The position numbers were made by a program, and so were the translations under genes. A stretch of 64,000 nt of DNA from Ehretia macrophylla (lineage: Eukaryota; Streptophyta; Magnoliopsida; Boraginales; Ehretiaceae), in assembly GCA_037974665.1 (NCBI GenBank), contig CM075764.1, positions 78,074,325 through 78,138,324 of the forward strand, written 5' to 3'. This document shows positions 22,562 through 61,547 of this stretch, in pieces. The notes beneath the pieces were generated by a model. It ran no database searches, was not told the DNA's origin, and saw only the letters and a list, made by a program, of their open reading frames with translations. Numbering within the stretch: position 1 is the stretch's first letter; each line of letters opens with the position of its first letter.

Positions 22562-22564
<3 letters not shown>

Positions 22565-22594
<30 letters not shown>
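22565..22594. repeat. TA dinucleotide run
   Basis: About 15 TA units inside the X LTR. The 3' LTR has a shorter run at the matching place (39197-39217), as expected of a slipping microsatellite. Confidence 0.9.
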
Positions 22595-22597
<3 letters not shown>

Positions 22598-31641: not shown

Positions 31642-31960
31642 GATGGGACAGTTGAAGAATATGTTTGGTTATAAAAGACCATTAGAGAATGCCTCCTTTA
31701 TCACCAAAGTTCTTCAAACCATTTTGAACTTGCCTTTGTTATATGCACTATGATTGTAATTCTATGGTGGGATAGAACTTAAACTCAGATTCATGCATAG
31801 ATACTTTAGTGAAGCAACTATGATGAATGGTCAATGAATTTTTATCCAAGAAACAATCAAAGTACAAATAATCACATTCTTAAATATGAAATGATGGAGA
31901 TCGATTTCAGAGAAAATGAAAAATAATCCCTATATTTATAAGAAGGTTAGAGGGATCCTG

Positions 31961-35444: not shown

Positions 35445-38400
35445 TGTTAAGGATATGCCCTAATACTATTGATTAGATGACCTAATTAGGGTTTAATAAG
35501 AATATATGTGTTTTTCAACACAATGATGTTTTTGGATATTCATATTCTCGGACTTTATGTGAATGTGTCCCTAGTGTTTATTGGAGAATAAAATATTCTA
35601 AAAGAGTTTAGAATACTTCGTTGTTTACATATCGATATGATAAACAATAAGAATTGAATCATAACCCTTCAAATTATTTAACTGGGACTAGAATAGTCGA
35701 GTATGGGTTATCATATGTTATTACCTTTGATTAATATAGTAATGTTAATGATAAATGATGGTATACGAAGTACCAGAACAACATGAGGATGTAGAGTAAT
35801 ATACATATGAGTGATCGTCAGTGGTACGGATCATTAAATGTGATGATAAATAGTGAACTACATGATTTTAGCTTAATAGTTTACTATTTAGTTGAGAATT
35901 GTGCAAATTAATCTTCAAACTTGAGAAATTACGACTGCCGGATATATCAGGGACTAAATATAGCGTCTGGACTATACCTGCCTTCTATAAGGTAAGTTAC
36001 GGCCTTTTGCATTTTAGTCTTGTGATATAGAGACTAACAAGAAATTGTCAAGATAGGAACTATTAACCTCCATTGAGAGGCGATGTCCGATGATATTTAA
36101 AATCGGTCGATAAACGAGGAAGTCCTTAGCCAAGACAATAATGAAATTGATGGAAAGAACTTTTTCCATAGTTGTCATCTCTCGTTTCGCCGTTTTGGAT
36201 CTATTCATAGAATTAGAAGTGGGCTTAACCATTTCATGATCCTTTTCCCGGATCAGGACTGTCACGCCCCAACTCGACCCCTCCTACGATCAGTCAGGAC
36301 GCAACGGAGTTTCGGCAGCATAACGACAGTAACATGAACATCCGGGCTCTAAACCAACCCTTAAGAACAACATGCATCAACCTCCATAAATCACCAACCA
36401 ATTCCACAATCAAATTGACAACATACAACACAACCACTTCATACATTAAACATTCTTTCATCAACTCCTTCATAGTTACGCGCCTCCGTTCCAACATAGT
36501 ACATAGGCTATACATACATATCAAAATAGATTATAAACAAACTTAGCAACCTAGATCATAACAAAAGAAAGACTACTAAGTTAGCATCATTTAGTTCATT
36601 ATCTTACTACAACTTATACATCATAAATTACAAGGAAAATAAAGGACAACTAGGTTAATATACAAGATAATAGAGTATACAACATCTCAAGCATCAAGGA
36701 CAAGACTCTGGCACATAGGACTCGTCCACATACGGCACATTTTCCACATTCTCCTCTTCAGGAGGCACGTACCCGTAATCCTGCTCAAGTACACCTGTAA
36801 GCATGCATTAATAGAGAGTGAGCTTATATAAAATAAGCCCAGTGAGGATCCGATAGATCTCGAGCAAGGTCTACTAAACTCCTTGGAATAATCCTTTGAG
36901 TCAGTAAACACACAATAACAATAAATAATACTATCATCACATAACTATATGACCATTCAATAAAGGATACTCTCTCTAGTTGGTGTAGCTCCAAACGCCA
37001 TCACGATCTCAACCATTCTTCTTGTAACTCCCCATTACTCACGCACCCGGGGTACCCCCAATAACCTCGCCCTCCATGACACCTCCGTCATGCGAGCTGG
37101 AGGCAATCTCTGATAGTCATTCCGTTATCAACCCGACAGCCCGATGCTGCCCGAGAGGTGGCACACACATACCAGAGACCCAGCAATAATAATAAACATC
37201 AATCATCAATATTCCGAGAGATCAGCAACAAAAGTGCCCGATTCCCGTACTCAATAATCAATCAATAAAACATCAATATAACATCAATATAACATTAAAC
37301 AGCAAACAACTAAGTTAGATGACAAAGTAGGCCATCTAACCGAACATGCATTAAACACACAATCAAACTCTAATTTACCCATCAACAACTCACAATTCAA
37401 TCACTCAACACCACCCAACCATCTAAAGGCATCGTTCAAGAAATTAAAGAATGACAACCTAAACTTCTAAAATTCATAACTTACAATCTACTAATCCAAA
37501 CATTGCCAAATCAGTTTCTATCACTCACCCATTCAACCTACTACATTAACCCTCTCGGAAATCCACCATAACACCTCCAAATCATTCCCGATAACCCTAA
37601 AACCCTAGGATGTCTTGGCTGGATTTTCCGGATTTTCACACGAACAATGTAATCGAAAATTCGGCATTACAACAGCGCTAACACGTAATTATCAAGTATT
37701 TAGAAATCGACGGCAATCGATTTCGATCAACACAACTCATTTAATTCAACTTTGAACATTTTAATCAAAATTAAATACCCGGAAAATAAAAATTATGCTA
37801 CATCCGACAGAAATTCGTAGTATTGGTATATAACGATCCCTAGCATGCAAGGAGCAATAATCTATCCTCATATTTCAATTCTAACGGTTAAATTTTCATT
37901 TATGAGCAAAAGTATAAAAATGACATTTTGAGATCTAGAATTTTTCTCTCACCTTTGATGCGATAAAAGCCTAGGAATGCGTGCAATGCGTGCCCAACAA
38001 GCGGAATTCAACTCGGCACGAAATTCTACGGACAAAAACTAGCTTTTTCTTTGAAAAATTGCTTTGAAAACCTTGAAAACTCCTTGGCTTAATCTCCCAT
38101 GAAAATCTCGGCCATGTGTGTGAAAATGAGTGTGTTTTTGTGCTTTGGCAATGTGTGTTGATGATATATGCATGAAAGTCAAGATTTTAAATGAAAGTCA
38201 AAGTTGAAACTTTAGTGTTTTTAGTGTTTTCTTGACTTTAAATGCATTTTCTTGATCACCAAAGTTCAAAATAATTATTCAACACCCAAGCTAGCTCAAG
38301 TAAATTATTTTTAGGTGACAAGAAGTTTTACAATCAAACAATTCTACCCGAGTCGGCTTAAAACTCGATTTTCGCAAAAGTCGGTGTAAAAAACCCTAAT

Positions 38401-40147
38401 AAATTCTTAAGCCGATTTTAAAACTGTTTTAATCAAACACAGGTCTATTAAAGTCCGTGGACTAGGTCTATAAGGGTTAAAAAGACCAGTTTCAAAATTA
38501 TAGCGGACGTGTTTCGAAAATACTATTCACTGAAAATCGACGATAAAATTTCGGACTCCGTTTTTGATGAAAATTTCATGAATGCACATTTAGCATGTTC
38601 TAGGAGTATTGATACTAAAATTACCACATTCTAAGTCATATAGCATATAAACAGGTCAATTCACGCAAAACGAGAATAAACACGCAAAACGAGATAGGAT
38701 AGAAAAGTGGGGTTCCACAAGGACATTTTAATAGAAGGATTGGATTACACGGTAATTCCCGACAATAAATAGATTCATAAAAAGACCGAGTCTTCATTAT
38801 CGCATACATTTTCATGGTACGTTTGTTGCTAGTGCGTCACTCACGAACATGAGGGTATTTCGGGTAATGATTGAGACATTCCCGAAATAGAGTAAGAGGT
38901 TTAATGGTCCCTCATCGGTATACGGTTATGAATCTAGAAAGTCACACACTAATAAGCATCAAGAATAAGTTCGCTGGTAGCTTGTATAATATGGTTAATG
39001 ACTTTAAAGTGTTAATAGTCATCTAGATTGGTATTTGGGCCAAAAGTATAGTTTTATAAAGTTTTGGGTCAAAACATAAATAGTAAAATGTGTAGGGGGC
39101 TAAACTACAAATATTGAAAAGTTGTTTCAATAAAATTATTCTAATAGAGATTAGAATAAGCAAAAGTATTTATTTACATATATATATATAGGCATTTATA
39201 TATATATATATATATATAGACTAAGGATAATATGATTCATGAGATGCCACGTCATCAATCCTAGTCATCAAATGACAAAGCAAACTTTTGGATAAAGTGG
39301 TAGATGTGGCGTGTGACTAAGCATGTGGGATGATTAGATAGTCCATGTCATCTATCCTAGGATTAATCTTATCCTTTAATTTGAATCAAAGGTTGAGATT
39401 TAATCTTGATTAAATCAATATACCTTTTTGTCATTAGATGATAATCATAGCTTTTGCAAGTTGTAGGAGAGAGAAAAAGGTAACCTTTGGATTGTAATTA
39501 TTACAATCCAAAGTCATGCACAAGCTTATCCAATCATGCACTCAACTAAAGCTTCTTTTGATTGGATAATTAACATGCAAATATACATTATTATAATGGT
39601 GATTCTAATATAATATAGATGAACAATCTCTCTCCTCTAATGCATGCACTACACGGCCAAACAAGGAAAGGAAGAGAAAAATTATCATCTTCTTCTTCTT
39701 CATGTTGTTTCGGCCATAGCTTAGGGAAAAAGAAAGGATTTTTCTTTTGCAAAACAAACCACATATATACATAGCTATATATCTTGAAAGCATACTTGCA
39801 CTTTTAGTTTTCAAGTTTGGTGGACTTTGGATGCTTGGTGGACTTCTCTAGAGCCTTCAAGTTAGAAGGATTCAAGCTAGTCTTCAAAGCTTCATCTTCA
39901 CTTGTGACTGCAAGAGGTATATCTCTATTCTACTCTTTTGTGTGTATATATATATATATATATATATCGTTAAAATAGAAGTTACTTGCATGCTATTCTA
40001 AGAACTTCTATTAGATTAACTTGTTGTTACAAAGTGTTTACATGCCAAAAATTTTAAAATGCTAGCTTATCTTGGTATGTACTTGTTGTATACAACTTGT
40101 TTATCTAACGATCCATTCCACACATTTAATGATAAGTTAGACTTTCA
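35445..40147 (+). repeat. X 3' LTR, split by one solo LTR
   Basis: LTR pieces are 35445-36259 and 38720-40147. It supplies the empty-site sequences that confirm the three insertions in the 5' LTR, while the 5' LTR confirms the one here. Confidence 0.92.
36260..38719 (-). mobile_element. Solo LTR, G1 gypsy family (2460 bp)
   Basis: Runs from TGTCACGCCCCAACTCGAC to GTGGGGTTCCACA, flanked by a perfect AGGAC duplication (36255-36259 and 38720-38724). The empty site is seen in the 5' LTR near 22088. It has the H1 hairpin at 37312-37341, but its H2 hairpin is not recognisable. Confidence 0.94.
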
Positions 40148-41791: not shown

Positions 41792-42816
41792 TATCACGAC
41801 CCCAAATCTGAATTGCTAAAACGGTCTCTAATACCATAATAATGAAAGGAATTATAACTCAAGCTTACGGAACATTGAATAATCCTAGGGTCGAGATGCA
41901 ACGGGCTTAAGAATATCACTCCTCTTAAAACCGCTAAGGCATAAGACAATAGCCCGATCATTATTAGCCATAAACATTTCAATACTAAGATTCAAATTAC
42001 TAAGTTACATTAATTCAAATAATACATGTTATACAAACTTCATAACTAAATTTTAATGTTACAACCACCAAATACACAATTACATGGCCTAGATTCATCA
42101 AGTACATCATGCACGATCCAACTACTACAACTAGGCCTCAAAAGAATATTGTATCAAACTAGAAACAAAGCTAAGCGTCCAAAGTTAATACATTACATCA
42201 AATAGTTCATATACCTAGCCCATCTATTTCAACAAGAGGTTAAACACACAAGGGAGCATTCATTCATCTTGTAGAGTTGACTCGGGTTTAGCCTAACCTG
42301 TAATCGTAATGAAGAAGGGTGAGCTATACCTAGCTCAGTGAGGGATAATGGGAAGGGGATTTTTGCAAGTGTTTTATTCTTTAGAAAACCATGCCTTGCA
42401 CACATGGACAAATAATATGAAACGAGATTAAACATGATAAATAAACTATGACATGCATGAAGGAACATGAGTTACAATGAGGATGCATTATATCCTGAAC
42501 ATTTATCAATAATAGAAACAAGCACAAAAGTAAGAAAACAACCCTACTCCCCGAGGACCTCTAGGGACCAAGTAGAAGTGGTAAACCACTTAATGAAAGG
42601 ATACGGTTGAATGAGCATTTGTTAGAGATGGCCAGTCTCAAGTCTTCAATCAATATCTTCCCTTTCGCCAACATTAGGTGCTATCCGGATATACACCGGG
42701 GTCCATGGTAGTCGAGTCCTACTGACAGCCCGATACTGCCCAAGGAACCCGAGCGCTACTACGCCCATAAGTTTGGTACCGTCGCGCCCGTAATTGATAA
42801 CAAAAGGAACATAGTT

Positions 42817-42842
42817 GGAGGACAACAAAGTAGGTTGCCTCC
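42817..42842 (-). other. Conserved LTR stem-loop, CTACTTT loop (H2)
   Basis: Plus strand GGAGGACAAC, loop AAAGTAG, GTTGCCTCC: nine pairs with one bulged A. A second, shorter copy (GCAAC/GTTGC) is at 42969-42985. Confidence 0.7.
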
Positions 42843-43226
42843 GTTCATATAAACATGTATAAGCATTTCAACATTTGACCATGTAGAACATCATGTAAAC
42901 ATGAAAGCATGTAGCGATTAATCACATTGGCATCTAGGTACATGTGACATATAATACATATATGGAGTGCAACAAAGTAGGTTGCCTCGGTACACAAGCA
43001 TTATTAAGTATCAATGACTAACAAGATAATAGGAGGATCAATATGCTATAAGTAAACTTGTGCAATATAACTCCATGTGTAACGCACTTAGAAGTGGCAT
43101 GTATAAACATTTATAGGCTTACTCATACAACACAAAACCTAAAAGGTTCAACAAATAAAGACTCAACACGCATGTACATAGTTTACCAAAACCGAACACC
43201 ATGAAATGAACCTACTTTGGGAGTTC

Positions 43227-43335
43227 GGTCGTGTACCCAGTTGTGTTGATCACGACTGTGTACACGACCGTCAAAATGCATGCTAAAAATACAGGAGTGT
43301 ACCCGGTCTTTTTCAACACAACCGGGTACACGACC
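43227..43335. repeat. 23-bp inverted repeat in G2 LTR
   Basis: Arms 43227-43249 (starts GGTCGTGTACCC) and 43313-43335 (ends GGGTACACGACC) match at 22 of 23 positions, with a 63-bp spacer. The other LTR has the same structure at 57527-57549 and 57613-57635, with two mismatches. Confidence 0.9.
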
Positions 43336-44302
43336 TCCCCCCTGCAATACGAAAACGTGAAATTGGCCATTTTGTTCCGTACATGTTTTCTAGCTTCCAA
43401 CACTTTTCCAAGCATCTAATAACCTCAAATGGGGTTGTCAACCATCATATACAAGCTCAAGAATCATGCCATAACACCCTTGAAACATTAATTAGCATCT
43501 AAGACAACCAAGAATCCATATGAACTCAAGAATACCCAAACACACATCTAAGACCCACAATGCTTAATTCTCTTTTCTACTCCTTGCACACAAGATATAA
43601 TCCATCTAACACAATCAAGAACATCTTCTAGCTCATCATACAACTCATTAACTCATCAAAAGCTAGTTAGAGCAAAGCCTAGCTCAACAAACTCAAAATG
43701 CAACCAACACACACCAAACTCTTAGATTGTGCATCATAAGCAAGATTAACACTAAATGTACATCATATAACCTTGGATGAGTTTTAAGAAAAGTTTTGAA
43801 AGAATCCCTCACCTTAGCTTTGAGTTAAAGTGCAAGAAATAGTGCTAGAAAGTTTGAAGATGCAAGACAATGCTTAGGAATAGGTTGAATCTCATTTTTC
43901 TTCCTTTTTCTTCTTCTTTTTCTTTCTTCCTTCTTTCTATCTTTTTCTCTCTTTTCTCTCAGTCGTGGGGTATGTATGTGTATTGTATGTAGCATTTTTT
44001 GTGTATGTGTGTGTAGTGTAATATGTGTGTTTTGTTAGGTAAAGGATATATTAAAAGGCCAAAAGACCAAGTTGCCCTTTTAACTAAATGTTATTTATTT
44101 GCTTGCCATTCCAGTTGCTTCCTAACTATTTGGTTACTAGTCTTAACTTGATAAATTTTAATTAATGTCTACAATATCTAAAACATCTAAATGCACATAA
44201 CTAAACATAATTGTGTGTAAAATGATACAAATGCACGTAAATCGATATAAATACATATTGGATGATATGATATGCATATAATGTTTCGTGTGGGGCTTCA
44301 CA

Positions 44303-46380: not shown

Positions 46381-47416
46381 CTATATCACGACCCCAATTA
46401 TGAATCGCTAAAACGGTCTCTAATACCACAATAATCAAAGGAATTATAACTCAAGATTACGGAACATTGAATAATCCTAGGGTCGTGATGCCACGGGCTT
46501 AACAAGATCACTCCTCCTAAGTTCGCTAAGGCACAAGACAATAGCCTGAACACTATTAGCCATAAACATTTCAATACTAAGATTCAAATTACTAAGTTAC
46601 ATGAATTCAAATAATACATGTTATACAAACTACATCATTAAAGTTTAAGGCTACAACTACCAAATACACAATTACATGGCCTAGATCATCAACTACATCA
46701 TGCACGATCCAACTACTACAACTAGGCCTCAAAAAAATATTGTATCAAACTAGATACAAAGTTAAGCGTCCAAAGGTTAATACATTACATCAAATAGTTC
46801 ATATACTTAGCCCATCTATTTCAACAAGAGGTTAAACATACAAGGGAGCTTTCCTTCATCTTGCAGAGTTGACTTGGGCTTAGCCTCACCTGTAATCGTA
46901 ATGAAGAAGTGTCAAACCCCAAAATTCCCTTTTATATGAAATTACGTGTTTTGACTTGTCTATATGTTATTTGAATTAAAATGTGTTAATTATGTGATTA
47001 TTACTTCTATTACATGATATGTGAGCATTCATGAAATTTTCATAAAAATATGCATTGAAAATTTTATCGTTGAGTTTTGAGAATTGTGTTTGAATACACG
47101 TCCGCTAGAATTTTGAAACGGTCTTTTAAACGATTTAAAGCCTAGTCCTCTATGATTAATAGACCCGTGTTTGATAAAAACTGATTCTGAAACGAATTAG
47201 GAATTTAAAAGGATTTTTCATTTTCTTTTGCAAAAATAAACATTTTATTTTAACTATATGTATATATATGCTTACATATGCTTACATATAAATGTTGTCA
47301 AATATTTATAGTCTACTAAGTATAGTATTTATAGTAGTTTATATATATATATAAAAGCAAAATAGGCTAAAAACACAAAGTTTGAAAACTTTGACTTAGT
47401 TTTATTTTGTTGACTA

Positions 47417-47420
<4 letters not shown>

Positions 47421-47482
<62 letters not shown>
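47421..47482. repeat. TA dinucleotide run
   Basis: About 30 TA units just after TTGACTATGCA. The 3' LTR has only a short run at this place (54907-54914), so the difference arose after insertion. Confidence 0.95.
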
Positions 47483-47486
<4 letters not shown>

Positions 47487-48320
47487 ACACATTATACACA
47501 CATAATACATTTAGACAATACTCAAAACACCACAAACACACACACACAAGGCCGAAACTCTAAGAAGAAAAAGAGAAGGCATTTTGCTTACGATTTCAAG
47601 AAATTTTCTCAAAGATTTTGGAATTCAAAGCCAAATAACTTCATTCAAAGCTTGAAATTGCTTGTTGGTCATCCATTCTACACATTTATAACATTGCTTG
47701 GCATCAAAGGTGAAGGAAAAAATATAGTTCATTATTTTAAAGTTGAGAAGAGTTTTTGGTTGATGCATTTATAGTTGCTATTTTGCTAAATTGATGTTAG
47801 ATTATTGCTTAGAAGATGATAAGGACCAATTATATGAATTTGTTGCCATTTTAATCGGTAGTAGCTTGTATTTTATTTTTCGGGTATTTAAATTGATTAT
47901 TTGGCTTATATTTGAATAATTGTTGTTGTAGAAGTTGAAATTGAGTTGTAGTTTCTTTTATAGGTTTTTTAATTATTGTATAGTAATGTTATAATGCCAA
48001 ATTTTCAATTTGAATGCCATAGCAAAAGGTCAAAAATTCAGCCTAGGTGCAGTGCCAAAATTAGTCTTGTTGGGCTTGTTTTGGGTGGCTTTTGGATGGT
48101 TTCCGAGGGGGTTAATGTAGTTTCATGTGTGGTTGAGTGGCAGGAAAAGCTTCAGGGGTTGTTTGATTAGTAGATTGTAAGTTATGAATTTTAGAAGTTT
48201 GTGTAGCCTTTCTTTAAAATGCTTAAATGTTGTCTTTAGTTGTTTGGTAGTGTTTGTGTAGTTGTTTCTTGGATTATTGTAGAGTAGGTTTGGGTTTGAA
48301 AGTATGTTGAAAGGTGTATT

Positions 48321-48351
48321 AAGTTGGGTGGCCTACTTTGTCATCTAACTT
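48321..48351 (+). other. Conserved LTR stem-loop, CTACTTT loop (H1)
   Basis: Arms AAGTTGGGTGGC and GTCATCTAACTT pair at all 12 positions, three as G-U, around CTACTTT. G-U pairs work only on the sense strand, which points to an RNA structure in the element transcript. Confidence 0.75.
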
Positions 48352-48405
48352 GGTTGTCTTAGTTGTTTAATTAATGTTATGATGATTAATGATTGTTGTT
48401 GTACT

Positions 48406-48432
48406 AGAAGGCAACCTACTTTGTTGTCTTCT
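48406..48432 (+). other. Conserved LTR stem-loop, CTACTTT loop (H2)
   Basis: AGAAGGCAAC and GTTGTCTTCT pair over 10 positions (one G-U) around CTACTTT, 54 bases after H1. Confidence 0.75.
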
Positions 48433-49430
48433 CAGAATATGAAATGTTTATTATTATTGTTGTGAGTCATGATAGTGTGTGCCACATCTCGGGCAGTATC
48501 GGGCTGTCAGGTTGAAAACAGCGTGGCTATCATATGTTATCCCCTATCTTGCATGGACGGAGATGTCATGGAGTGTGGGTCTAGGATGGGGTACTTTCAG
48601 AATGTATGGAGTGTGGGTCTAGGATGGGGTACTTTCAGAATGTATCAATGGGCGTATAGGGTTAGTTGAGTTCGTGATGGCGTATGGAGCTACATCAACT
48701 AGTATATCATTACTCAATTGAATGGTTACCTGTGTTGCTTTAATTTTATTATGGTTATTGGTGATGTTTATTGAATGTCTAATTGTTCATAGGGTGTTTT
48801 CCCAAGTGGTAAAGAAAAGTGTTTCCAAAACATCTTTTGAACTCTCGCTAAGCTTTGTATTGTATAAGTTCACCCTCTTTACTGACTTTCAGGTGTTACC
48901 GAGCTAGATTTAGGGTACATTCCTCAGGAGACTGAGTACGAGCATTATGTGGACGAGTCCAATGTGCAGGAGTCTTATCCTTGATGCCTTTGCTGGAATG
49001 CTTCTATGATGTTCTGTAATATGAAATATGTTGTAATGTTTAAAGCTTTAAAGGTTGTATTGTATAAGGTGCTTTAAAGATAGTGAAAAGTATAATGCTA
49101 GTGTTGTAGTGTTACTTTTAGAGATGAATGGGTTGCTAGAGTAGTTTTATATCTATTATGCATATGTATATTATAGCTTGTGGTATGTTATTGAAACAGA
49201 GGCATATGACTTGTGGTTGGGATGTTGTATAGTTGTATAATGAATGGTTTTGAATGTGTTGTATGTTGATGAATGATTGTTGGAGTAGTGGTTGAAGTTG
49301 TAGTTGGCTGTGTGATATCATAAAGGATTGGTTTAGAGTCCTATTGTCCATGTTACAGACGTTATATTGCCGAAATTTCGTTGCATCCTAACTGATCGTA
49401 AGTGGGGTCAAGTTGGGGCGTGACATTAAG

Positions 49431-49442
49431 TGGTATCAGAGC
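49431..49442 (+). other. G1 primer-binding site (initiator tRNA-Met type)
   Basis: TGGTATCAGAGC, five bases after the LTR. Confidence 0.93.
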
Positions 49443-49674
49443 GCATGTTTAGCTGTTAGCTGGGTTATCCTCGGTATATGGGTAGTGGTCTAACCATGCA
49501 AGTATGTATTAAGTGAAAAAGTGAAGTATATGACTATATGATTATGTGATTAACTTATTTACGTGACTAATATTTATGTAATCTACGTGCCTCATGTGAG
49601 TTGCTGCCTATGTGCTATTAACTGTCTATAGCCTGTCTATGTGTTATAAAATGTGCTAACTCTTTGATAGTAAG

Positions 49675-50936
49675 ATGGCTGTCCAACAACCCGTAATAGG
49701 CCTCAGGGAGGTGATGATGATCAGGGGAATCAGGAACAGGGTCGGGATCAGGGAATGGATAGGATAGCGGTGGCAATGGACCGTATAACCAAGGTTCTTG
49801 CTTGGCAGACAGAGATATTAGCGGGGCAAGCTGCCCAGGTTCAGAATGTGCAGGCGCAAGTGCACAATGTATAGGGTGGTTACTGTGAAGGTAGTTTGTT
49901 AAAGGAATTCTTTGGGTACTTTCCACCAAGGTTTCAGGGCTAGCCTGATGATCGGAAAGCTGAGGCTTGGGTAAGCAAGATTGAGAAAATAATTGACCCA
50001 CTTGAGTACACAAATGATAGAAAGGTTACCTTTGTCGTGTATCCTCTTGATGATGAGGCAGAGGAATGGTGGCGTACAGTGAGGTTAGTTTGGGAAGCTC
50101 AGGGTACTCCCTATATCTGGGCTAATTTCATTCCGGAGTTCCGGGCTAAATATGTTCTGAGGCTTGCTAGGGAGCGTAGGGAAGAGGAGTTCTTGTCCCT
50201 TGTTCAGGGTAATTCTATAGTGGCTCAGTACGAGGCCAATTTTACTAGGTTGTCCCAGTATGCACCGGAGTTTGTGCAGGACCAGGAGAGGAAGACTCGA
50301 AGGTTTATACGGTGGTTGAGGCCAGAGCTTCAGGATTCAATGGCCTTGTTAGAGTATGATGAGTTTCCCGCAGCCTTTAATACTACTTCTAGAATGAAGA
50401 AAATGAAATGGGAGCAGGCTGGTTCAAGTTAGGCCAGTAGGAGGCCGTTTCAGCCTCAGGGTCAGTAGGTTGTTTATAGGCCTCCAGTGCAGTAGGGTAT
50501 TTATAGGCCACCAGTGCAACAGGGTTCTTACAGACCTCAGGGGCAGCAGAGTACTTACAGGCCCTAGTTTTAATAGGGATCCTATCAGGCACAGTCACAG
50601 CAGAGGCCGGCCCAGTCTTAGGGTCAGTACAGGCCGAATGTTGTGATACCTCAACAAACTAGTGCAGCTGCATATTCAGCTTCTGGTTCTTCGGGAGGCA
50701 GTGTTGGTACTCCGACACTGCATTGTGCTTATTGTAAACATAAGGGCCATTTGGAAGCCGACTGTCAGATGAAGGTAGAGAGGTGTTTAGGTTTCGGCAA
50801 CAACTAATACAGGGCGAGAGACTGCCCCAGATATCAGAGGGTTGAGGGTTAGTCAGCGACCCAGGGTTATCAGGGTAGACCTACAGGCAGTGCACCTCAG
50901 CAGCAGCGGGTTCAGGCTTGGGCCTATGCGATCGAC
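49675..50936 (+). pseudogene. gag: G1 gag (capsid and nucleocapsid), broken
   Basis: The ATG at 49675 is the likely start, but the frame shifts near 49690. The rest lies in the next frame: a Gln/Asp/Gly-rich opening, VQNVQAQVHNV, YFPPRFQG and DDRKAEAWVSKIEKI. The capsid core at 50037-50432 reads YPLDDEAEEWW, FIPEFRAKYV, IVAQYEANFTRLSQYAPEFV and FIRWLRPELQDS. A Gln/Tyr/Pro-rich linker follows with repeated TAG codons (50430, 50466 and others), then one zinc knuckle CAYCKHKGHLEADC at 50724-50765. Gag forms the particle and packages RNA. Most stops sit where the linker repeat predicts Gln. Confidence 0.88.
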
Positions 50937-52340
50937 TTGGAGGAGTTGCCTGAGGCAGCAGCGGTTGTGGAAGGTAACTTTCTTATACTCAATCAACTTG
51001 TTAAAGTATTGATTGATTCTGGTGCTACGCATTCTTTTATTACACCTCCCAGTGTGCAACATGTTAATGTGCAACCTGAGAAGTTACCTTATGTGGTTGA
51101 GATTAGTACTCATTTGACTGATAAATATGTGACTGGCTTAGTATGTAAAGATTGTAAAATACATGTTAAGGGTCAGGATTTTCTTTCGAACCTTATCTTA
51201 TTTCCTATTTGAGAGTATGATGTTATCTTGGGTCTGGATTGGCTTGCCAAGTATGATGCTCAATTAAACTGTAGAACAAAGGTGGTACAGTTTTAGTTGC
51301 CAGAACAGCCAGTGGTCGAGGTAGTGGGAAACCGAGATCCTAAGACGAGTTTCACTATCTCATCAGTTAAAGCTATTAAGTTGGTGAGTAAGGGGTGTTC
51401 AGGTTACCTAGCTTATTTGATCAACAAACTATCTGATAAGCTAAAATTGGAGGAAGTTCAGATAATTCGGGAATATCCCAATGTATTTCCCGAGGAGTTG
51501 CCAGGACTACCGCTAGAAAGAGATATTGAGTTTGTGATTAATTTAATTCCCGATACTCAACCTATTTCTAAATCAGCATACCCGATAGCACCAGCTGAGC
51601 TTAAAGAGCTGAAAACTCAGTTGTAGCAGTTATTAGAGAAATGTTTCATTCAGTAGAGTTTTTCACCGTGGGAAGCACCCGTTTTATTTGTGAAGAAGAA
51701 GGATGGTACCTTGAGATTATGTATTGATTATCGTGGTTAGAATCAGGTGACCATCAAGAACAAATATCTTTTGCTACTAATTGACGAGTTGTTTGATCAA
51801 CTTCAGGGAGCTAAAGTCTATTCTAAGTTTGACTTGAGGTAGGGGTATTATCAGCTTCGGATCCATACGGAGGATGTTCCAAAGTCTGCTTTCAGGACTC
51901 GGTATGGGCATTACGAATTTGTAGTTATGCCCTTTAGACTAACTAATGCACTGGCAACATTCATAGATTTTATGCATCGAGACTTTCGGCCATACTTGGA
52001 CCAGTTCATGGTAATCTTCATTGATGATATCTTAGTATATTCTAAGACTGAATCGGAGCACGAGCAACATTTACGACTTATCCTATAGAAACTTTAGGAG
52101 CATTAGTTGTTTACGAAGTTCAGCAAATGTGAATTCTGGCTACAACGAATATCTTTTCTGGGCCACGTGATTACTCAAAACGGTATCTCTGTAGATCCCA
52201 CTAAAATTGAGGTGGTGATGTCTTGGAAAAGGCCGGAGAATGTTACGGAGGTTCGCAACTTCCTTAGTTTGGTGGGTTACTACCGCAGGTTTATGAAGGA
52301 CTTTTCTAAGATTGTGGGGCCACTTTCTTAGCTAACTCAA
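50937..52340 (+). pseudogene. pol: G1 protease and reverse transcriptase, broken
   Basis: Protease active site DSGATHS is at 51015-51035, followed by the YDVILGLDWL region. RT begins near 51440 and shows [71 protein letters not shown] and the catalytic FIDD at 52017-52028. Then come [19 protein letters not shown] and [12 protein letters not shown]. All are in one frame, interrupted by TGA at 51210-51212 and about ten TAG codons, including three between 52085 and 52107. Retention of every motif with stops but no frameshift over 1.4 kb fits point decay by deamination. Confidence 0.92.
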
Positions 52341-52928
52341 AAATGAACAAGTTTTACATGGGATGAGAAGTGTAAGAGTGGGTTTTAGGAGTTGAAAAAG
52401 AGATTGACTACCGCTCCGGTACTTGCATTGCCAGAGGGAATTGATAATATGGTCATCTACAACGATGCATCCAAAGAGGGCTTAGGTTGCACACTTATGC
52501 AGAATGGTCGAGTTATTGCCTATGCTTCTAGAAAGTTAAAACCATATGAGGTGAACTATCCGACTCATGATTTGGAGTTGGCAGCTGTTGTGTTTACTCT
52601 GAAAAAGTGGCATAACTATCTGTGGGGTAGTAAGTTTGAAACCTTCACTGATCATATAAGTCTGAAGTACTTGTTCTCATAGAAGGAGTTGAATATGTGG
52701 CAACAAAGATAGATGGAGCTTCTAGGAGATTATAATTGTTCTATCAATTATCTGCCTGGGAGGACAAATGTTGTAGCAGATACTCTTAGCCGTAAGGCCA
52801 GTATTGCTTGTTTGGTAGTTAAAAAGTGGGAGGTGCTTGAAGAAGTTAGTTATTGGAAACTCGAGTTGACTCAGGTTGAAATGATGTTCACATCTACGGA
52901 TTCAACCTCTATTGTTGTCTCAGATTAG
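52341..52928 (+). pseudogene. pol: G1 RNase H, broken
   Basis: Reads [28 protein letters not shown] (first catalytic Asp), [34 protein letters not shown] and [10 protein letters not shown], ending NYLPGRTNVVADTLSRK. Stops at about 52345, 52388, 52680 and 52710 break it. The first could derive from CGA and the next two from CAG, and the last sits at a conserved Trp. A frameshift near 52911-52920 moves integrase to the next frame. Confidence 0.9.
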
Positions 52929-54389
52929 AGAAGCTCAGAAACTTGATGCAAAACTTCAGAAGACCAATGAGCAGATTGCGGATGGTCAGTTTGACTTTAA
53001 ATTATATGAGGATGGTATTCTTCAGTTTCGGAATAGGGTGTGTGTTCTTGATGAACCGGGTTTAAGGAGAGGTATTCTGGAGGAGGCTCATAATTCTAAA
53101 TACACCATTCATCTCGGTGGAAACAAGATGTACCGGGATTTGAAACAACATTATTGGTGGAACTACATGAAGATGGAGGTTGCTTAGTTTGTATCCAGAT
53201 GTTTGACTTGTCAGCGAGTAAAAGCGAAACATCAATGACCCGCAGGGTTACTTCAGCCGTTGGCAATACCAGAGTGGAAATGGGAACATATTACGATGGA
53301 CTTCGTCACTGATTTTCCTAGAACACCGAGAGGTTGTGATGCGGTTCAGGTTATTGTAGACCGTTTGACGAAGACAGCTTATTTTATTCCGATGAGGAAG
53401 GGTGATAAACTTGTGAAGTTGGCGGATCTTTATTTGGATCAGATTGTTAAACTTCACAGGATTCTAGTCAGTATTGTTTATGATCGAGATCCTCAGTTTA
53501 CTTCTCGATTTCAGGAGAAACTTCAGAAAACTTTTGGTACTAAGTTGAGTTTCAGAACAACGTATCATCCACAGACCGACGGTCAGTCGAAGAGAACTAA
53601 TCAGATTCTGGAAGATATGCTCAGGGCTTATGTTTTAGACTTTGGGAAGAATTGGGAGAAACATTTACTGCTAGCCGAGTTTTCCTATAACAATAGTTAT
53701 CAAACGACTATTGGGATGGCACCTTATGCACCTCTCTACGGTCGTTAGTGTTGATCACCTTTGTACTGGGACGAGGTAAAGGAGATGAAGGTTATTGATT
53801 CAACTATGATGCCAGAACTTCTAGAGAAGATTGAGAATGTCCAATTAATCAGGCAGAGAATGCTGACAGCGCAGAGCAGATACAAGAGTCATGTTAATAA
53901 ACGCTGACGGGATTTGGAGTTTGTAGTCGGGGATAGAGTTTTCTTGAAATTGTCTCCTCGTAAGGGTTTTGCTCATCATAGTAAAGTTGGTAAACTGAAT
54001 CCAAGGTTTGCAGGGCCGTTTGAGATTACTGGCCGAGTTGGCAAGTTGGCGTATCAATTAGCTTTGCCACATAACTTCTCTAATGTTTATGATGTCTTCC
54101 ACGTATCTACTTTGAGGAAGTATTATCCGGATCCTTCTCATATTCTAGAACCAGAGTCGTTATAGCTTCGTGACAATCTGACTTATGATGAGTAGCCGAT
54201 TCGTAATCTAGATTAGATGGAACAGGAGTTGAGCTCGAAGAAGATTCTGATGGTTAAGGTATTGCGGAATCATCACGGGATTGAGGAAGCTACTTGGGAG
54301 AGAAAAGATCAGATTCAGCAGCAATACCCATATTTGTTCCGAGCAGCAAGTAAGAATTTCGAGAACAAAATTTCTTTAAAGCGGGAGAA
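52912..54389 (+). pseudogene. pol: G1 integrase with C-terminal chromodomain, broken
   Basis: The zinc-binding part reads HNSKYTIHLGGNKMY to CLTCQ. The core follows: WEHITMDFVTDFP (first Asp), VSIVYDRDPQFTS (second Asp), HPQTDGQSKRTNQILEDMLRAY (Glu). After LYGR come two stops where element A has KCRS: TAG, then TGA in place of CGA. The C-terminal domain (GDRVFLKLSPRKGF, GPFEI, FHVSTLRKY) and a chromodomain-like tail (MVKVLRNHHGIEEATWE) follow. TAG codons at 54163, 54193 and 54214 lie in the tail, and element A has CAG, CAA and CAG there. The tail ends just before the polypurine tract. Confidence 0.92.
54378..54389 (+). other. G1 polypurine tract
   Basis: AAAGCGGGAGAA directly before the 3' LTR start TGTGAAACC. 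Confidence 0.85.
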
Positions 54390-56592
54390 TGTGAAACCTC
54401 AAAATTCATTTTATATGAAATTAAGTGTTTTGACTTGTTTATATGTTATTTGAATTAAAATGTGTTAATTATGTGATTATTACTTCTATTACATGATATG
54501 TGAGCATTCATGAAATTGTCATAAAAATCTGCATTGAAAATTTTATCGTTAAGTTTTGTGAATAGTGTTTGAAGACATATCCGCTAGAAATTTGAAACTG
54601 GTCTTTTAAATGTTTTAGAACCTAGTCATCTGTTATTAATGGACTCGTGTTTGATAAAAAATTGATTCTGAAACAAATTAGGAATTTAAAAGGATTTTTC
54701 ATTTTCTTTTGCAAAAATAAGCATTTTATTTTAACTATATGTATATTTATGCTTACATATGCTTACATATAAATGTTGTCAAATATTTATAGTCTATTAA
54801 GTATAGTATTTATAGTAGTTCATATATATATAAGCAAAATAGGCTTAAAACAACTAAAAACACAAAGTTTGACAACTTTGACTTAGTTTTATTTTGTTGA
54901 CTATGCATATATATACATTATAAACACATTATACATACATAATACATTTAGACAAAACTCAAAACACCACAAACACACACATACAAGGCCAAAACTCCAA
55001 GGAGAAAAAAAGATGGCATTTTGCTTAGGTTTTCAAGAAATTTTCTCATAGATTTTGCAATTCAAGGCCAAATAACTTCATTCAAAGCTTGAAATTGCTT
55101 GTTGGGAATCCATTCTACACATTTTTAACATTGCTTGGCATCAAAGGTGAGGGAAAATATAGTTCATTATTTTAAAGTTGAGTTGAGTTTTTGGTTGATG
55201 CATTTGTAGTTGCTATTTTGCTAAATTGATGTTAGATTATTGCTTAGAAGATGATAAGGACCAATTATATGCATTTGTAGCCATTTTAAATGGTAGTAGC
55301 TTGTATTTTTTATTTTTCGGGTATTTAAATTGATTATTTGGCTTATATGTGAATAATTGTTGTTGTAGAAGTTGAAATTGAGTTGTAGTTGCTTCTATAG
55401 TTTGTTAATTATTGTATAGTAATGTTGTAATGCCAAATTTTCAATTTGAATGCCATAGCAAAAGGTCAAAAATTCAGCCTAGGTGCATTGCCAAAATTAG
55501 GCTTGTTGGGCTTGTTTTGGGTGGCTTTTGGTTGGTTTCCAAGGAAGTTAATGTAGTTGCATTCGGGGTTGAGTAGGAGGAAAGGGTTGGGGGTTGTTTG
55601 ATTAGTAGATTGTAAGTTATGAATTTTAGAAGTTTGTATAGCCTTTCTTTAGAATGTTTAAATGTTGTCTTTAGTTGTTTAGTAGTGTTTGTGTAGTTGT
55701 TTCTTGGATTGTTGTAGAGTAGGTTTGGGTTTGAAAGTATGTTGGAAGGTGTGTTAAGTTGGGTGGCCTACTTTGTCATCTAACTTGGTTGTCTTAGTTG
55801 TTTAATTAATGTTATGTTGATTAATGATTGTTGTTGTATTGGAAGGCAACCTATTTTGTTGTCTTCTCAGAATATGAAATGTTTAATATTATTGTTGTGA
55901 GTCATGATAGTGTGTGCCACCTCTTGGGCAGTATCGGGCTGTCGGGTTGAAAACGGCGTGACTATCATATGCTATTCCCTATCTCGCATGGGTGGAGATG
56001 CCATAGAATGTGGGTCTAGGATAGGGTACTTCCGAAATGTATCAATGGGCGTATAGGGTTGGTTGAGTTTGTGATGGCGTATGGAGCTATGTCAACTAGT
56101 ATATCCTTTCTCAATTGAATGGTTACCTGTGTTGCAGGAGTCTTGTCCTTGATGCCTTTGCTGGAATGCTTCTATGTTGTTCTGTAAAATGAAATATGTT
56201 GTAATGTTTAAAGTTTTAAAGGTTGTATTGTATAAGGTGCTTTAAAGATAGTGAAAAGTATAATGCTAGTGTAATAGTCTTACTTTTGGAGATGAATGGG
56301 TTGCTAGACTAGTTTTATATCTATTATGCATATGTATATTATAGCTTGTGGTATGTTGTTGAAACAGAGGCATATGACTTGTGGTTAGGATGTTGTATGG
56401 TTGTATAATGAATGGTTTTGAATGTGTTGTATGTTGATGAATGATTGTTGGAGTTGTGGTTGAAGTAGTAGTTGGTTGTTGATGTTATAAAGGATTGCTT
56501 TAGAGTCCTGTTGTCTATGTTACAGACATTATATTACCGAAATTCCGTTGCGTCCTGACTGATCGTAAGTGGGGTCGAGTTGGGGTGTGACA
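54390..56592 (+). repeat. G1 3' LTR
   Basis: Starts TGTGAAACC and ends GGGGTGTGACA. It holds H1 at 55756-55786 and H2 at 55842-55866 (loop CTATTTT). At 56135/56136 it lacks 229 bp present in the 5' LTR (48739-48967), with the trinucleotide TGC at both breakpoints. Confidence 0.95.
55756..55786 (+). other. Conserved LTR stem-loop, CTACTTT loop (H1)
   Basis: Identical to the 5' LTR copy at 48321-48351; H2 follows at 55842-55866 with GAAGGCAAC and GTTGTCTTC arms. Confidence 0.75.
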
Positions 56593-57106
56593 AGAAGGGT
56601 GAGCTACACCTAGTTCAGTGAGGGATAACAAGAAGGGGATTTTCGCAAGTGTTTTATCCTTTAGAAAACCTTTAGAAAAGCATGCCTTGCACACATGGAC
56701 AAATAATATGAAACGAGATTAAACATGATAAATGAACTATGCGATGCACGAAGGAACATGATTTACAATGAGGATGCACTATATCCTTAACATTTATCAA
56801 TAACAAAAACAAGATTAAAGGTAAGAAAACAACCCTACTCCCCAAGGACCTTTAGGGACCAAGTGGGAGTGGTAAACCACTTAATGAAAGGATACGGTTG
56901 AATGAGCATTTGTTGGAGATGGCCAGTCTTAAGTCTTCAATCAATATCTTCCCCCTTCACCAACATTAGGTGCTATCCGAATATACACTGGGGTCCATGG
57001 TAGTTGAGTCATACTAATAGCCCGATGTTGCTCAGGGAACCCGAGCGCTACCACGTCCATAAGTTTGGTACCATCGTGCCCGTAATTGATAACAATAGGA
57101 ACATTT

Positions 57107-57144
57107 GGAGGACAACAAAGTAGGTTGCCACTTTGTTGTCCTCC
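57107..57144. repeat. Perfect 15-bp inverted repeat in G2 right LTR
   Basis: GGAGGACAACAAAGT (57107-57121) and ACTTTGTTGTCCTCC (57130-57144) are exact complements with an 8-bp spacer. The left LTR has only the ordinary hairpin here, so this copy gained an inverted duplication. Confidence 0.95.
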
Positions 57145-58624
57145 GTTCATGTAAACATGTATAAACATTTCAATATTTGATCATGTAGAACATCATGTAA
57201 CATGAAAGCATGTAGCAATTAATCACATTGGCATCCAGTACATGTGACATATAATACATATATGGAGGGCAACAAAGTAGGTTGCCTCGGTACACAAGCA
57301 TTATTAAGTATCAATGACTAACAAGATCATAGGAGGATCAAGATGCTATAAATAAACTTGTGTAATATAACTCCATGTGTAACGCACTTAGAAGTGGCAT
57401 GTATAAACATTTATAGGCTTACTCGTACCACACAAAACCTAAAAGGTTCAACAAATAAAGACTCAACACGCATATACATAGCTTACCATAACCAAACACC
57501 ATGAAATGAACTTACTTGGGGAGTTTGGTCGTGTACCCAGTTGTGTTGATCACGACTGTGTACAGGACCGTCAGAATGCATGCTAAAAATACGAGAGTGT
57601 ACTTGGTCTTGTTCAACACGACCGGGTACACGACCTCTCCCCTGCAATGTCAAAACGTGAAATTGGCCATTTTGTTCCTTACATGTTTTCTAGCTTCCAA
57701 CATTTTTCCAAGCATCTAATAACCTCAAAAGAGGTTGTCAACCATCATATATACAAGCTCAAGAATCATGCCATAACACTCTTGAAACATTAATTAGCAT
57801 CTAAGACAACCAAGAATCCATATGAACTCAAGAACACCCAAACACACATCTAAGACCCACAATGCTTGGTTCTTTTTTCTACTCCTTGCACACAAGATAT
57901 AATCCATCTAACACAAGTAAGAACATCTTCTAGCTCATCATACAACTCATCAACTCATCAAAATCTAGTTAGAGCAAAGCCCTAGCTCAACAAACTCAAA
58001 ATGCAACCAACACATACCAAACTCTTAGATTGTGCATCATAAGCAAGATTAACACTAAATGTACATCATATAACCTTGAATGAGCTTTAAGAAAAGTTTT
58101 GAAAGAATCCCTCACCTTAGCTTTGAGTTAGAGTGCAAGAAATGGTGCTAGAAAGCTTGAAGATGCAAGACATTGCTTAGGAATAGGTTAAATCTCCTTC
58201 TCCTTCCCTTTTTTTCTTCTTCTTTCTTCCTTCTTTCTCTCTTCCTCTCTCTTTTCTCTCAGCTGCAGGGTATATGTGTGTAGTGTGTGCAGCATTTTTG
58301 TGTGTGTGTGTAGTGTAATGTGTGTGTTTTGTTAGGTAGTGGATATTTTAAAAGGCCAAAAGACCAAATTGCCCTTTTAACTAAATGTTGTTTATTTGTT
58401 TGCCATTCCAGTTGCTTCCTAACTATTTGGTTACTAGTCTTAACTTGATAAATCTTAATTAATGTCTACGACATCTAAAATATCTAAATTCACGTAAGTG
58501 AACATAATTATGCGTAAAATGATGCAAATGCACGTAAAACCATTCAAATGCACGTAAATTGATATAAATACATATTGGATGATATGATATACATATGGTG
58601 TTTCGTGCGGGGCTTCACAGAGAC

Positions 58625-59053: not shown

Positions 59054-61547
59054 TGTAACGCCCCGATCCCTCATGAGACCGGAGGCTCTAATAACCATGC
59101 TATTCTCAACCCAATACCAAACCCGGTCACAAAATTTTAGGAGAAAAACGGACAGAGTTTCCCCTGTACTATGGACATTCTGAAAACCTGTAAATTCTCA
59201 AATAAGGTAACTACAAGGTAAACAAACTTTTCATGGCTAAATATTTAAAGATTCAAGGCCATCCGAGCCTTGAAGCAAACAACAGTTCCAAAACCACACA
59301 AGCGTGCAAGTAACTTGTTTATAATATAGTCTAATAACCATGCCATTCTAGGATAACATTAAAACATACTTAGAGATAAAACATTCTACACTAAGCCATT
59401 CACTCCCAAGCATGCAAAGCAACTAGAAATAGAAATATAAGTTATTACAAGCCATAGAATTACCACTGCTACTACATTATCAGACTTCCAGCTTACATAT
59501 TACTCAAATACATACATGAGCTTTAAGGCCCCAAAATAGATTATACATAGAACAACAAATTCTTCACATAGCAACCAGAAAGCACATCCGCCTCAGACAA
59601 ATATCACACAGCAGTTAAGGCAACTCCACCAACTGTGCCACCTGAAACATGTTAGCGAGGTATGAGCAACCATTGTTGCCCAGTAAGGGATATAGTCCCG
59701 GGGCGTGCAATGCAACAGATAATACAATTACACAACGATAACACTTTAACAATTTAAGAAACAATGATAACTTAAATAACCACACAATTAAAAGGATACA
59801 TTTCAACAATCCCCTATACACCAATCTTCACTGGTCTTCAATCACGATCCACGAACCACGAGCACGATCACGATAAGCCGGCATAACCCCAATCACTCCA
59901 GTGGGTGTACTCCGGATGTACCCCGAATCCTACGACCCAACATCCCCTGGAAATCTCCGGACCAGGCGAATGAGGGAATAGGGCACGGAGTTTGAATATC
60001 CACCGGCAAGCCCTCTACTGCCCAACCGATATTCAACACATCCGCCCCGACACTATGGTTGCGCAACCACTATGCAATGCACTCAACGATGGCAAGTTAA
60101 TAACAATAATATAAGCATTAACACATATGAGGATCAACAAAGTAGGTTGACCTCGTTGCAATTAGGATAGAAGCAAAGATAGAAGCTAATAAGCAGTTTA
60201 CAAATGAACTTATACCATATAAGCATAGAATCATTCCAAAAGCTCCAAATCAATTTAAAATCATATATAAACACTTAAGAAGTCCTGACATGGGTTTAGA
60301 AGTATGAGACAACTTAAATTGCACCTAAACCTCTTTGTTTTTTGAACTATTTCTCTTCTAAACCAAAGTTAATGATTTCATTTTCAAAGGAAACTCTCCC
60401 AACCTTCTAACTAACCCCCAAGGTACCCTCTCAACCCTCGAACTCAATCAAATGCCCGCGTTTACCCCGAAAGCCCCAATTTCCCTCTTTTGGCTTTAAA
60501 CCACACCTACATTGTCCGGGCTTCAAACAAGGGATATCAAGGCATCTATAGCACCTAGGTAGCCTAAGGATACTAGAATTGAAGCCCGAATCCACCCGGA
60601 TTCGCATTAACCCCGAAAGCCCCAACTTAAAGTCGGCTATTTTCCATTTTTAGGCGATTTAAGGGCAATACAAGTGTACGGGGCTATTTAATTATCTTCA
60701 CTAGTACCTAAGGCATCAATTAGAAGCATTAATTCAAGCCAATTCGAGCAATTACACAAAACCCTAGAAAAAAACGTCACTATTCACCCTAAAAATCAAA
60801 CTAACGATTCTAACCGTTTAAATTGCGAAACGACGGTTCAAAAGTGTTCTCTAGCATTCATATAGATAGTATATTAGCATAGATAACAATTATAATGGCA
60901 TATAATCATATTTTCAACAAATCAATAAATGAGCAACTATTTAAAAATGCAAAAACAAGTCGTGAAATCCCTCACCACTACGCGTAGGAGCATTTAGGAA
61001 CCTTGCAAACACCCTACACTAGTTGCTCAAGGCTTGGCTTGGCTTGAATTGAAGAGTTGAAGATGGAAAAATGCTCCCAAGTGCAAGGAGGGGCTGTCGG
61101 GTTTGGGGCTGCTGTTTCAGCTTTTTATTTTTTTTTTCTTTTGCATTTTGTGAGTTTAAGTGATATAATAAGGGGTTGAGTTGAGGTGGGGTCAATTTGG
61201 TGCTTAAGTGATCTAATAAAATGTGCGTAGTAAGCTTTAAAACGAGCTTAGATGGTAAAATATATGCTAGCTAATTAATTACCTAAGTTAGTTACGTAAC
61301 ACTATTCACTTGACTTCTAAAATTATTTTCTAAACGAGCCCTCCTAACGCCTTTAGCTCAAATGCGCATTTTTTCCACTACTTTAACAATTAATATGATT
61401 TAATAAAAATGTTAATTCACTAATAGAATGCAGTTTGAAAACGAAGTGAATAGTAGCTAAGAAAGTCAATAAATAAAGCACAGAATTAAATGCGCAAATA
61501 AGGGATGCAACAGTAAGTTAATGCAAGGCAAAAGTTCGAGCGTCACA
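59054..61547 (-). mobile_element. Solo LTR, G3 family (2494 bp)
   Basis: Runs from TGTAACGCCCCGATCCC to TTCGAGCGTCACA, flanked by GATAG (59049-59053) and GGTAG (61548-61552), four of five matching. Its first 100 bp match the solo LTR at 28277 closely; the other end differs, so it is a separate subfamily. It has a hairpin at 60129-60154. Removing it restores a continuous C2 integrase frame (VKYMMSHTS joined to the segment ending at 59053). Confidence 0.85.
60129..60154 (-). other. Conserved LTR stem-loop, CTACTTT loop (H2)
   Basis: Plus strand GAGGATCAAC, loop AAAGTAG, GTTGACCTC: nine pairs and one bulged A. Where G2 has a C-G pair at the fourth position from the loop, this copy has T-A followed by C-G, so pairing is kept with different bases. 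Confidence 0.7.

Follow-up and report, generated by a model that had tools for sequence, protein, structure and literature searches.

In a single 64-kb window (the whole stretch of DNA that was analysed), hairpins whose loops are the same or nearly so, but whose arms differ, occur at matching places in the LTRs of five families of plant LTR retrotransposons, and they very probably represent a conserved RNA-type hairpin. The whole reading that we favour, in which they are copies of one conserved element that tags unspliced RNA, is credible and falls somewhat short of an even chance. By our own estimates its structural part is far firmer than its functional part, as a function of the hairpins as a signal for unspliced RNA can be advanced only tentatively. 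The positions of all features are given in Table 1.

Hairpin 1 in the LTRs of a Ty3/gypsy family

The first hairpin (hairpin 1) belongs to the G1 family, of which six LTR copies (a to f) lie in the window. LTRs e and f flank one element, with the target duplication AGAAG, so that the six LTRs represent five independent insertions. The sequence TGGTATCAGAGC, which is initiator-tRNA-like and which we take to be the plant iMet primer site, follows 5' LTR e; this position after the first LTR, together with the order of the domains, makes the plus strand the sense strand of LTRs e and f. Separate ORF pieces of the element matched, in order, the Pfam families Retrotrans_gag (2.2e-16), RVP_2 (2.6e-20), RVT_1 (2.2e-11), RT_RNaseH (5.9e-27) and rve (4.1e-6). 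The G1 element is a Ty3/gypsy element (Metaviridae), with gag, protease, RT, RNase H and integrase between its LTRs, and a PBS. A further piece (54217-54453) was chromodomain-like by eye only, a chromovirus/Tekay-like trait, and gave no Pfam match. The element (46905-56597) is inserted in the 3' part of an LTR of another family, H, between a branch-point-like hairpin and an acceptor-like site. No partner LTR was seen for the four G1 LTRs in 16918-25450 and 36260-38719, and their surroundings are continuous in related copies; LTRs a, b, c and d look like solo LTRs.

All six G1 LTRs carry hairpin 1 in the sense orientation, as the first-pass annotation had proposed. That annotation described the 3' arm as unchanged in five copies and nearly so in the sixth; it is in fact unchanged in all six, and variation in the 12-bp stem is confined to the 5' side. 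The 5' arm does vary as had been stated, but the variants listed omitted the form AAGTTGAGTGGC of the copy at 24420, the A of which faces C. Six of the 12 positions of the 5' arm are variable; four are paired in every copy and two are not (an A is opposite C in copy c, and a C opposite U in copy d), and no pair of the 12-bp stem has changed on both sides. The loop and the 3' arm form the longest invariant run of the six-copy G1 LTR alignment (20 nt in 2644 columns, the next being 10 nt). Hairpin 1 folded more strongly than dinucleotide shuffles in all six copies (z from -2.0 to -5.8), with energies of -9.5 to -18.9 kcal/mol in sense compared with -2.9 to -11.0 kcal/mol in antisense.

Pairing-preserving changes within G1 had been put forward as an argument for selection. 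We compared them with a null in which columns were drawn from the rest of the LTR alignment, matched for majority base and variability. In the 12-bp stem 70 of 72 cells were paired (null mean 66.1, P = 0.054), and in the 15-bp stem 87 of 90 (P = 0.012); fully compatible variable positions of the 12-bp stem were four of six (P = 0.19). A strong transition bias does not explain the pairing, since transitions account for only 435 of the 806 two-state columns of the alignment. The hairpin is thus real and most changes keep its pairing, but the 12-bp result is marginal, with two breaks and no double change, and the pairing argument inside G1 alone is suggestive only. The accompanying argument, that G-U pairs indicate sense RNA, holds for hairpin 1, which folds better in sense, but not for the hairpins of families H, K and J, which fold equally well or better on the opposite strand.

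Hairpins with the same loop and different arms

The earlier proposal of selection on RNA structure is supported, mainly because four more LTR families carry hairpins with an identical or nearly identical loop on other arms, the G1-internal argument contributing little. Within G1 itself, a second hairpin of this kind (hairpin 2) lies 83 nt downstream of hairpin 1; it is intact in three of the six copies, and its site is decayed or different in the remaining three (b, c and d). Families H, K, J and M carry hairpins with an identical or almost identical loop at the matching place. On the minus strand the scan for the loop placed it, with arms that pair, at 42980, 42833, 57280 and 57123 in the two H LTRs and at 60145 in K. 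All are in the sense orientation of their own LTR, as determined by the PBS (G1, H) or by LTR-end sequence (K, J, M). As it was the hairpin or the features next to it that drew attention to K, J and M, the count of 11 LTRs with a hairpin out of 11 is partly circular, and the five families, being probably related, are not fully independent.

More palindromic stretches were seen by eye upstream of the hairpin, of GTGTACCCGGT/ACCGGGTACAC type in H (43230-43350, minus strand) and of GGTCGACC type in M (33000-33090, plus strand). The window also contains a tandem duplication of about 215 bp (61611-62042, 93% identical).

Table 1. Positions in the window of the LTRs, hairpins and predicted intron features; a slash marks a predicted splice site.
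Feature	Position	Strand	Remarks
G1 LTR a	16918-19222	-	
G1 LTR b	19383-21811	-	
G1 LTR c	23062-25450	+	
G1 LTR d	36260-38719	-	
G1 LTR e	46910-49425	+	5' LTR of the element carrying the original finding
G1 LTR f	54388-56592	+	3' LTR of the same element as e
Family H LTR h1	41792-44302	-	own PBS-like sequence on minus strand
Family H LTR h2	58619-56592 plus 46912-46384	-	split by G1 element
LTR-like unit K	about 61547-59054	-	
LTR-like unit J	3' end 28277	-	relative of K; 5' part not delimited
LTR-like unit M	about 31959-34429	+	fifth family
Hairpin 1, G1 copy e	48321-48351	+	original finding; 12-bp stem (15 with outer pairs); AAGTTGGGTGGC-CTACTTT-GTCATCTAACTT
Hairpin 1, G1 copy f	55756-55786	+	
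Hairpin 1, G1 copy c	24420-24450	+	one A-C mismatch
Hairpin 1, G1 copy d	37312-37342	-	outermost pair broken
Hairpin 1, G1 copy b	20409-20439	-	
Hairpin 1, G1 copy a	17939-17969	-	
Hairpin 2, G1 copy e	48406-48432	+	AGAAGGCAAC-CTACTTT-GTTGTCTTCT
Hairpin 2, G1 copy f	55841-55867	+	loop CTATTTT
Hairpin 2, G1 copy a	17835-17868	-	from loop scan
Degenerate hairpin 2, G1 copy c	24521-24566	+	8-nt loop CAACTTTT; fold z only -1.4
Family H copy h1, upstream hairpin	42965-42988	-	loop CTACTTT
Family H copy h1, downstream hairpin	42817-42842	-	GGAGGCAAC-CTACTTT-GTTGTCCTCC
Family H copy h2, upstream hairpin	57265-57288	-	loop CTACTTT, paired arms
Family H copy h2, downstream hairpin	57107-57144	-	rearranged: longer stem, 4-nt loop
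Family K hairpin	60129-60154	-	GAGGTCAAC-CTACTTT-GTTGATCCTC
Family J hairpin	29395-29419	-	GAGGACAAC-CTCTTTT-GTTGTCCTC
Family M hairpin	33499-33523	+	GAAAGCAAC-CAACTTT-GTTGTTATC
Predicted intron, G1 copy e	47710-48892	+	AAAG/GTGAAGG ... TTTCAG/GTG, 1183 nt; contains both hairpins
Predicted intron, M	32530-34022	+	1493 nt
Predicted intron, H copy h1	42298-43812	-	1515 nt
Predicted intron, K	59642-60975	-	1334 nt
Predicted intron, J	28907-29581	-	675 nt
GGGC block, G1 copy e	48491-48506	+	GGGCAGTATCGGGCTG; 76 nt downstream of hairpin 2; similar block in other families
Branch-point-like CTC(A/G)C and small TGAGC/GCTCA-type hairpin before acceptor	48843-48872	+	imperfect in copy e
Donor/branch-point pairing regions, H	43812/42300	-	
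Donor/branch-point pairing regions, K	60975/59680	-	
Donor/branch-point pairing regions, J	29581/28950	-	
Short acidic frame, G1 copy e	48895-48984	+	VTELDLGYIPQETEYEHYVDESNVQESYP
Short acidic frame, M	34025-34102	+	EAEPGQASQEVGETPWSNIEDLCLM
Short acidic frame, J	after 28907	-	

Pairing and loop conservation across families

An unbiased scan of both strands of the window returned 413 strong hairpins with loops of 7 or 8 nt, in which repeated loops were mostly AT runs. The commonest loops were ATATATAT and TATATATA (68 each), followed by CTACTTT (9); its antisense, AAAGTAG, occurred four times, and other loops at most twice among the matches listed. Fourteen hairpins were aligned without gaps, leaving out hairpin 2 of b, c and d, the rearranged hairpin at 57123, and M. 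In this alignment 83.3% of 168 cells pair, compared with 70.1% in shuffles (reached by none of 500) and at most 56.0% when the arms were slid; the covariation score was 0.539, compared with 0.306 in shuffles (again reached by none of 500) and at most 0.314 when slid. Pairs changed on both sides (7 of 12, compared with 5.8 in shuffles, 107 of 500 of which reached 7) and pair types (17 compared with 16.8) carry no weight, as neither exceeds the shuffles. The cross-family pairing signal of the 14 hairpins is largely one split, hairpin 1 against all others.

Apart from this split, two-sided changes were found at five of 10 pairs (1, 5, 6, 7 and 10) among nine second-type hairpins, aligned by hand without H42980, the rearranged 57123, hairpin 2 of c and d, and the bulged base of K; pair 7 did not fit in M or in b, and H had one base unpaired at pair 5. 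When arms were swapped among six representatives (hairpin 2 of b, c and d and the rearranged 57123 being omitted), the hairpins' own arms scored 127, a value that two of 720 permutations reach, counting the true one; when hairpin 1 was left out, the top score was reached by two of 120. Given the inner CAAC/GTTG, hairpins 2a, 2e, 2f, J, H42833 and K paired better than random arms (P 0.000-0.032). With the inner 4 bp given, H57280 and H42980 gave P 0.081, and the M hairpin, taken singly, was no better than chance (P 0.19).

A covariance model built from the 14 hairpins was run unfiltered over the window. It recovered the 14 members and a part match in the rearranged 57123 (E 4e-4), together with one unseen match, in family M (33493-33528, plus strand, E 0.023), the next, unrelated match having E 0.28. 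The M LTR shows the same neighbours in the same order as the other families, a context that was inspected after the match; the weight of the M match comes mostly from this context, because a model of hairpin 1 only is much weaker outside hairpin 1. That model gave E values of 0.04 and 0.08 for hairpin 2 of a and e and of 0.24 for two places in H, mixed with unrelated matches (E 0.10 and 0.22) and the antisense of hairpin 1b (E 0.07), and hairpin 1 alone was rejected as a search model across families. Elsewhere in the window lies an element that is copia-type by its ORFs (5469-14885, plus strand), with LTR-like repeats at 5469-7520 and 12833-14885 that are 94% identical; this LTR pair gave no covariance-model match up to E 5.

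When G1 copy e was compared by BLAST with H, K, J and M, a matching piece fell on hairpin 2 in all four, beside other short pieces of similar weight. Seventeen ten-mers were present in at least three of five family representatives, and seven of these came from the hairpin motif; by this comparison the stretch common to the families is only about 10 nt.

A predicted intron around the hairpins

The same order of features was read in the sense direction in all five families: a TATA-like and a CA-rich leader-like stretch (both read by eye), a donor-like site, the hairpin or hairpins, a GGGC block, a branch-point-like site, a small hairpin and YAG/G. The donor-like sites are AAAG/GTGAGAG in most G1 copies, TAAG/GTGAGGG in H, AGTG/GTGAGGG in K, AAAG/GTGAGGG in J and TGAG/GTGAAGG in M. 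In every family the hairpins thus lie inside a predicted LTR intron, between donor-like and branch-point- or acceptor-like sites. The predicted introns of five G1 copies measure 1157-1183 nt; the acceptor part is missing from copy f, and in h2 the G1 insertion interrupts this region. The T content of the predicted intron does not consistently exceed that of the next 150 nt (in K, for instance, 0.36 compared with 0.40), which counts against an intron. On balance, that the hairpins lie within a real intron is slightly favoured. It is plausible, from the TATA-like, leader-like and splice-like sequences, that they lie in the transcribed part of the LTR, as had been suggested.

The GGGC(A/G)G block lies 76-128 nt past the last intact second-type hairpin in the copies that have one adjacent. 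A conserved stem in this block could be retained only as tentative: RNAalifold proposed one short helix (-2.9 kcal/mol, ten copies) on an uncertain alignment. The branch-point-like sequence is CCTCAC. In the small TGAGC...GCTCA hairpin, 95% of 40 cells (five pairs, eight copies) are paired, compared with at most 45% when slid, shuffles being uninformative; none of the five pairs counted has changed on both sides, and further inside, by eye, a T-A pair of G1 corresponds to A-T in K and J. In H, K and J, 9 bp can form between the donor GTGAGGGAT and the branch-point stretch ATCCC(T)YAC (P 0.001-0.011 compared with random segments). As a closing stem of the whole block this pairing was rejected, since it holds in these three families but not in G1 or M, where 4-5 bp pair (P 0.26-0.74).

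Short acidic open frames of 24-32 codons, in the same phase, were seen right after the predicted acceptor in G1, J and M. In G1 this exon-2 frame is open in all five testable copies, the expectation from composition being 16-25% per copy, and the three codon positions vary at 10, 11 and 19 of 29 codons (three codons of copy d were dropped, their place being approximate). In h1 the frame stops at once and in K after 11 codons. The frames were dropped as proof of coding, as their openness is partly expected and those of h1 and K are interrupted.

Proposed role and alternative explanations

In the mechanism that we propose, the LTR would be transcribed from the upstream TATA-like site, and the stretch between AG/GTGAGG and YAG/G would be an intron that is either spliced or kept. 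Because splicing would delete the part of the LTR that holds the hairpins, RNA for copying would have to be unspliced, and reverse-transcribed copies would derive from such RNA; the genomic LTR copies all retain the hairpin stretch. Given their location in the predicted intron, the hairpins would be present only on unspliced RNA. There, once or twice per LTR and in sense in each of the five families, a stem of variable sequence would present the loop CYWYUUU, most often as C-CUACUUU-G. A loop-reading protein, either the Gag nucleocapsid or a host RNA-binding or export factor, would route this RNA to export and packaging, and spliced RNA would serve translation. Such a loop-reading RNA-binding partner is favoured by the constancy of the loop on arms that change and still pair. 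Of the roles suggested earlier, packaging is possible, and dimerisation is unlikely: the CUACUUU loop is not self-complementary, which makes loop-loop kissing between two copies improbable, and a dimer initiation loop was rejected on the same ground. A broader proposal, that the LTRs represent a widespread class of plant LTR retrotransposons whose LTR intron holds a loop-read element (hairpins and GGGC block) marking unspliced RNA for export and packaging, seems rather doubtful at present.

Two other explanations invoke the same sequences. The motif CCTACTTTG(T), which we take to resemble MYB AC-elements, might be a transcription-factor site in the U3 promoter, with incidental pairing of the arms. 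In its favour, conservation is highest in the loop and the bases that close it, seven of the 17 shared ten-mers come from the motif, and in H, K and J the opposite strand folds just as well. We nevertheless consider it unlikely, since the arms vary and still pair, the G-U pairs of hairpin 1 suit sense RNA, and hairpin 1 is without the ACC of an AC-element. Dimer sites usually keep their arms and vary the spacer, the reverse of the varying arms and fixed loop observed here. Less probable still is that the hairpins and the GGGC block fold a long LTR intron and tune the choice of splice sites, with no later role: splice-like sites do flank the hairpins in five families, the well-paired small hairpin sits between branch point and acceptor, and donor and branch point pair in H, K and J, but this last pairing is missing in G1 and M, the small hairpin is without two-sided change in the pairs counted, and mere folding needs no loop of fixed sequence.

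The palindromes might instead be made or repaired by template switching, during reverse transcription or replication, without selection on structure. In the h2 hairpin at 57107-57144 (minus strand), the 5' arm has received an insert that is the reverse complement of the 3' arm and turns an imperfect stem into a longer perfect one (-30.0 kcal/mol); arm-copying inserts of this kind are a typical sign of a template switch, and this one may well be the trace of such an event. As a general account it is improbable, because mutational upkeep predicts Watson-Crick arms and free loops, whereas hairpin 1 keeps G-U pairs and the loop is conserved. We give least credit to a source or target of small RNAs, that is, a miRNA-like hairpin that Dicer would cut or a target that a small RNA would recognise. 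The stems, of only 9-15 bp, are short for plant Dicers, about 10 nt only is common to the families, and no Rfam family reached threshold; the 20-nt run invariant in G1 would fit such a role, as would the precedent of hairpins in maize elements linked with small RNAs, described in the part of PMC10760457 available to us.

Should the preferred reading hold, in which the hairpins tag unspliced RNA, it would bear on the way in which these plant elements set RNA to be translated apart from RNA to be copied, for which few cis elements are named in the accessible parts of PMC12786077 and PMC3735527. A short hairpin with a fixed loop, common to LTR families that otherwise barely align, offers a searchable handle for mutation, for use as protein bait and for the classification of solo LTRs. 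A real intron would make solo LTRs ready units of promoter, first exon and intron for nearby genes.

Comparison with known systems

No Rfam 15 family matched above its gathering cut-off over the whole window; two mir-297 matches elsewhere in LTR e (E 0.02-0.04) were far below it. A miRNA precursor has a stem of about 20 bp or more, and this candidate was rejected as hairpin 1 pairs over 12-15 positions, with one or two breaks in some copies, and the others over 8-13, the rearranged 57123 being longer. Outside the window, no relative was found in plasmids; a scan of genome contigs gave one bacterial match, ascribed to chance, and the sole locus from viral contigs (L001) was a chimeric contig in which the motif is absent. 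None of the titles and abstract openings retrieved from the open-licence PMC literature described such an element, and the enod40 domains, in the portion of PMC10578108 that was available, showed no link to the hairpins.

Stem-loops of the R region and polyadenylation site of LTRs cause conservation of both arms, according to the available part of PMC3601003, which also states that plant Metaviridae LTRs could not be modelled. The hairpins described here are similarly stem-loops with both arms conserved, in what is predicted to be a transcribed part of the LTR; AATAAA, expected of an R-region polyadenylation hairpin, is absent from the loop and stem of the 15 hairpins examined.

Plant LTR retrotransposons must keep spliced RNA from replication, and they are known to separate their RNA pools: BARE makes spliced, capped and uncapped RNA classes (PMC3735527), and separate RNA pools or splicing are reported for BARE, Ogre, EVADE, CRR and Bagy2 (PMC3735527, PMC12786077). 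In the accessible parts of these two papers, unlike in the LTRs analysed here, the introns lie in the coding part and no common hairpin is mentioned.

The logic proposed here is that of retroviral packaging signals and of export elements such as the RTE and MTE. The CTE of MPMV is an export element of unspliced RNA with a repeated recognition motif; elements of the CTE/RTE kind bind NXF1 or a cofactor and export RNA that contains introns, and such export elements lie outside the LTR. The retroviral packaging signal psi, which binds Gag or nucleocapsid and is required for packaging, consists of stem-loops that follow the splice donor. Mouse export elements for unspliced RNA, the RTE of IAP and the MTE of MusD, are described in the part of PMC12786077 available to us, which regards the existence of such motifs in plant elements as uncertain. 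The hairpins resemble these export elements as structured cis elements proposed to act on unspliced RNA, the two hairpins of G1 and H recalling the repeated motif of the CTE, but motifs and folds differ and the retroviral and mouse elements lie outside the LTR. With psi they share the form of stem-loops near the 5' end of the element; they would, like psi, lie between a donor and an acceptor (here predicted) and so be on unspliced RNA only. Unlike psi, they lie inside the LTR and not in the PBS-gag interval, and they have no self-complementary dimer loop. By analogy, the element might conceivably be a plant counterpart of psi or of the CTE placed inside the LTR and hence kept by solo LTRs, a view that we hold with reserve.
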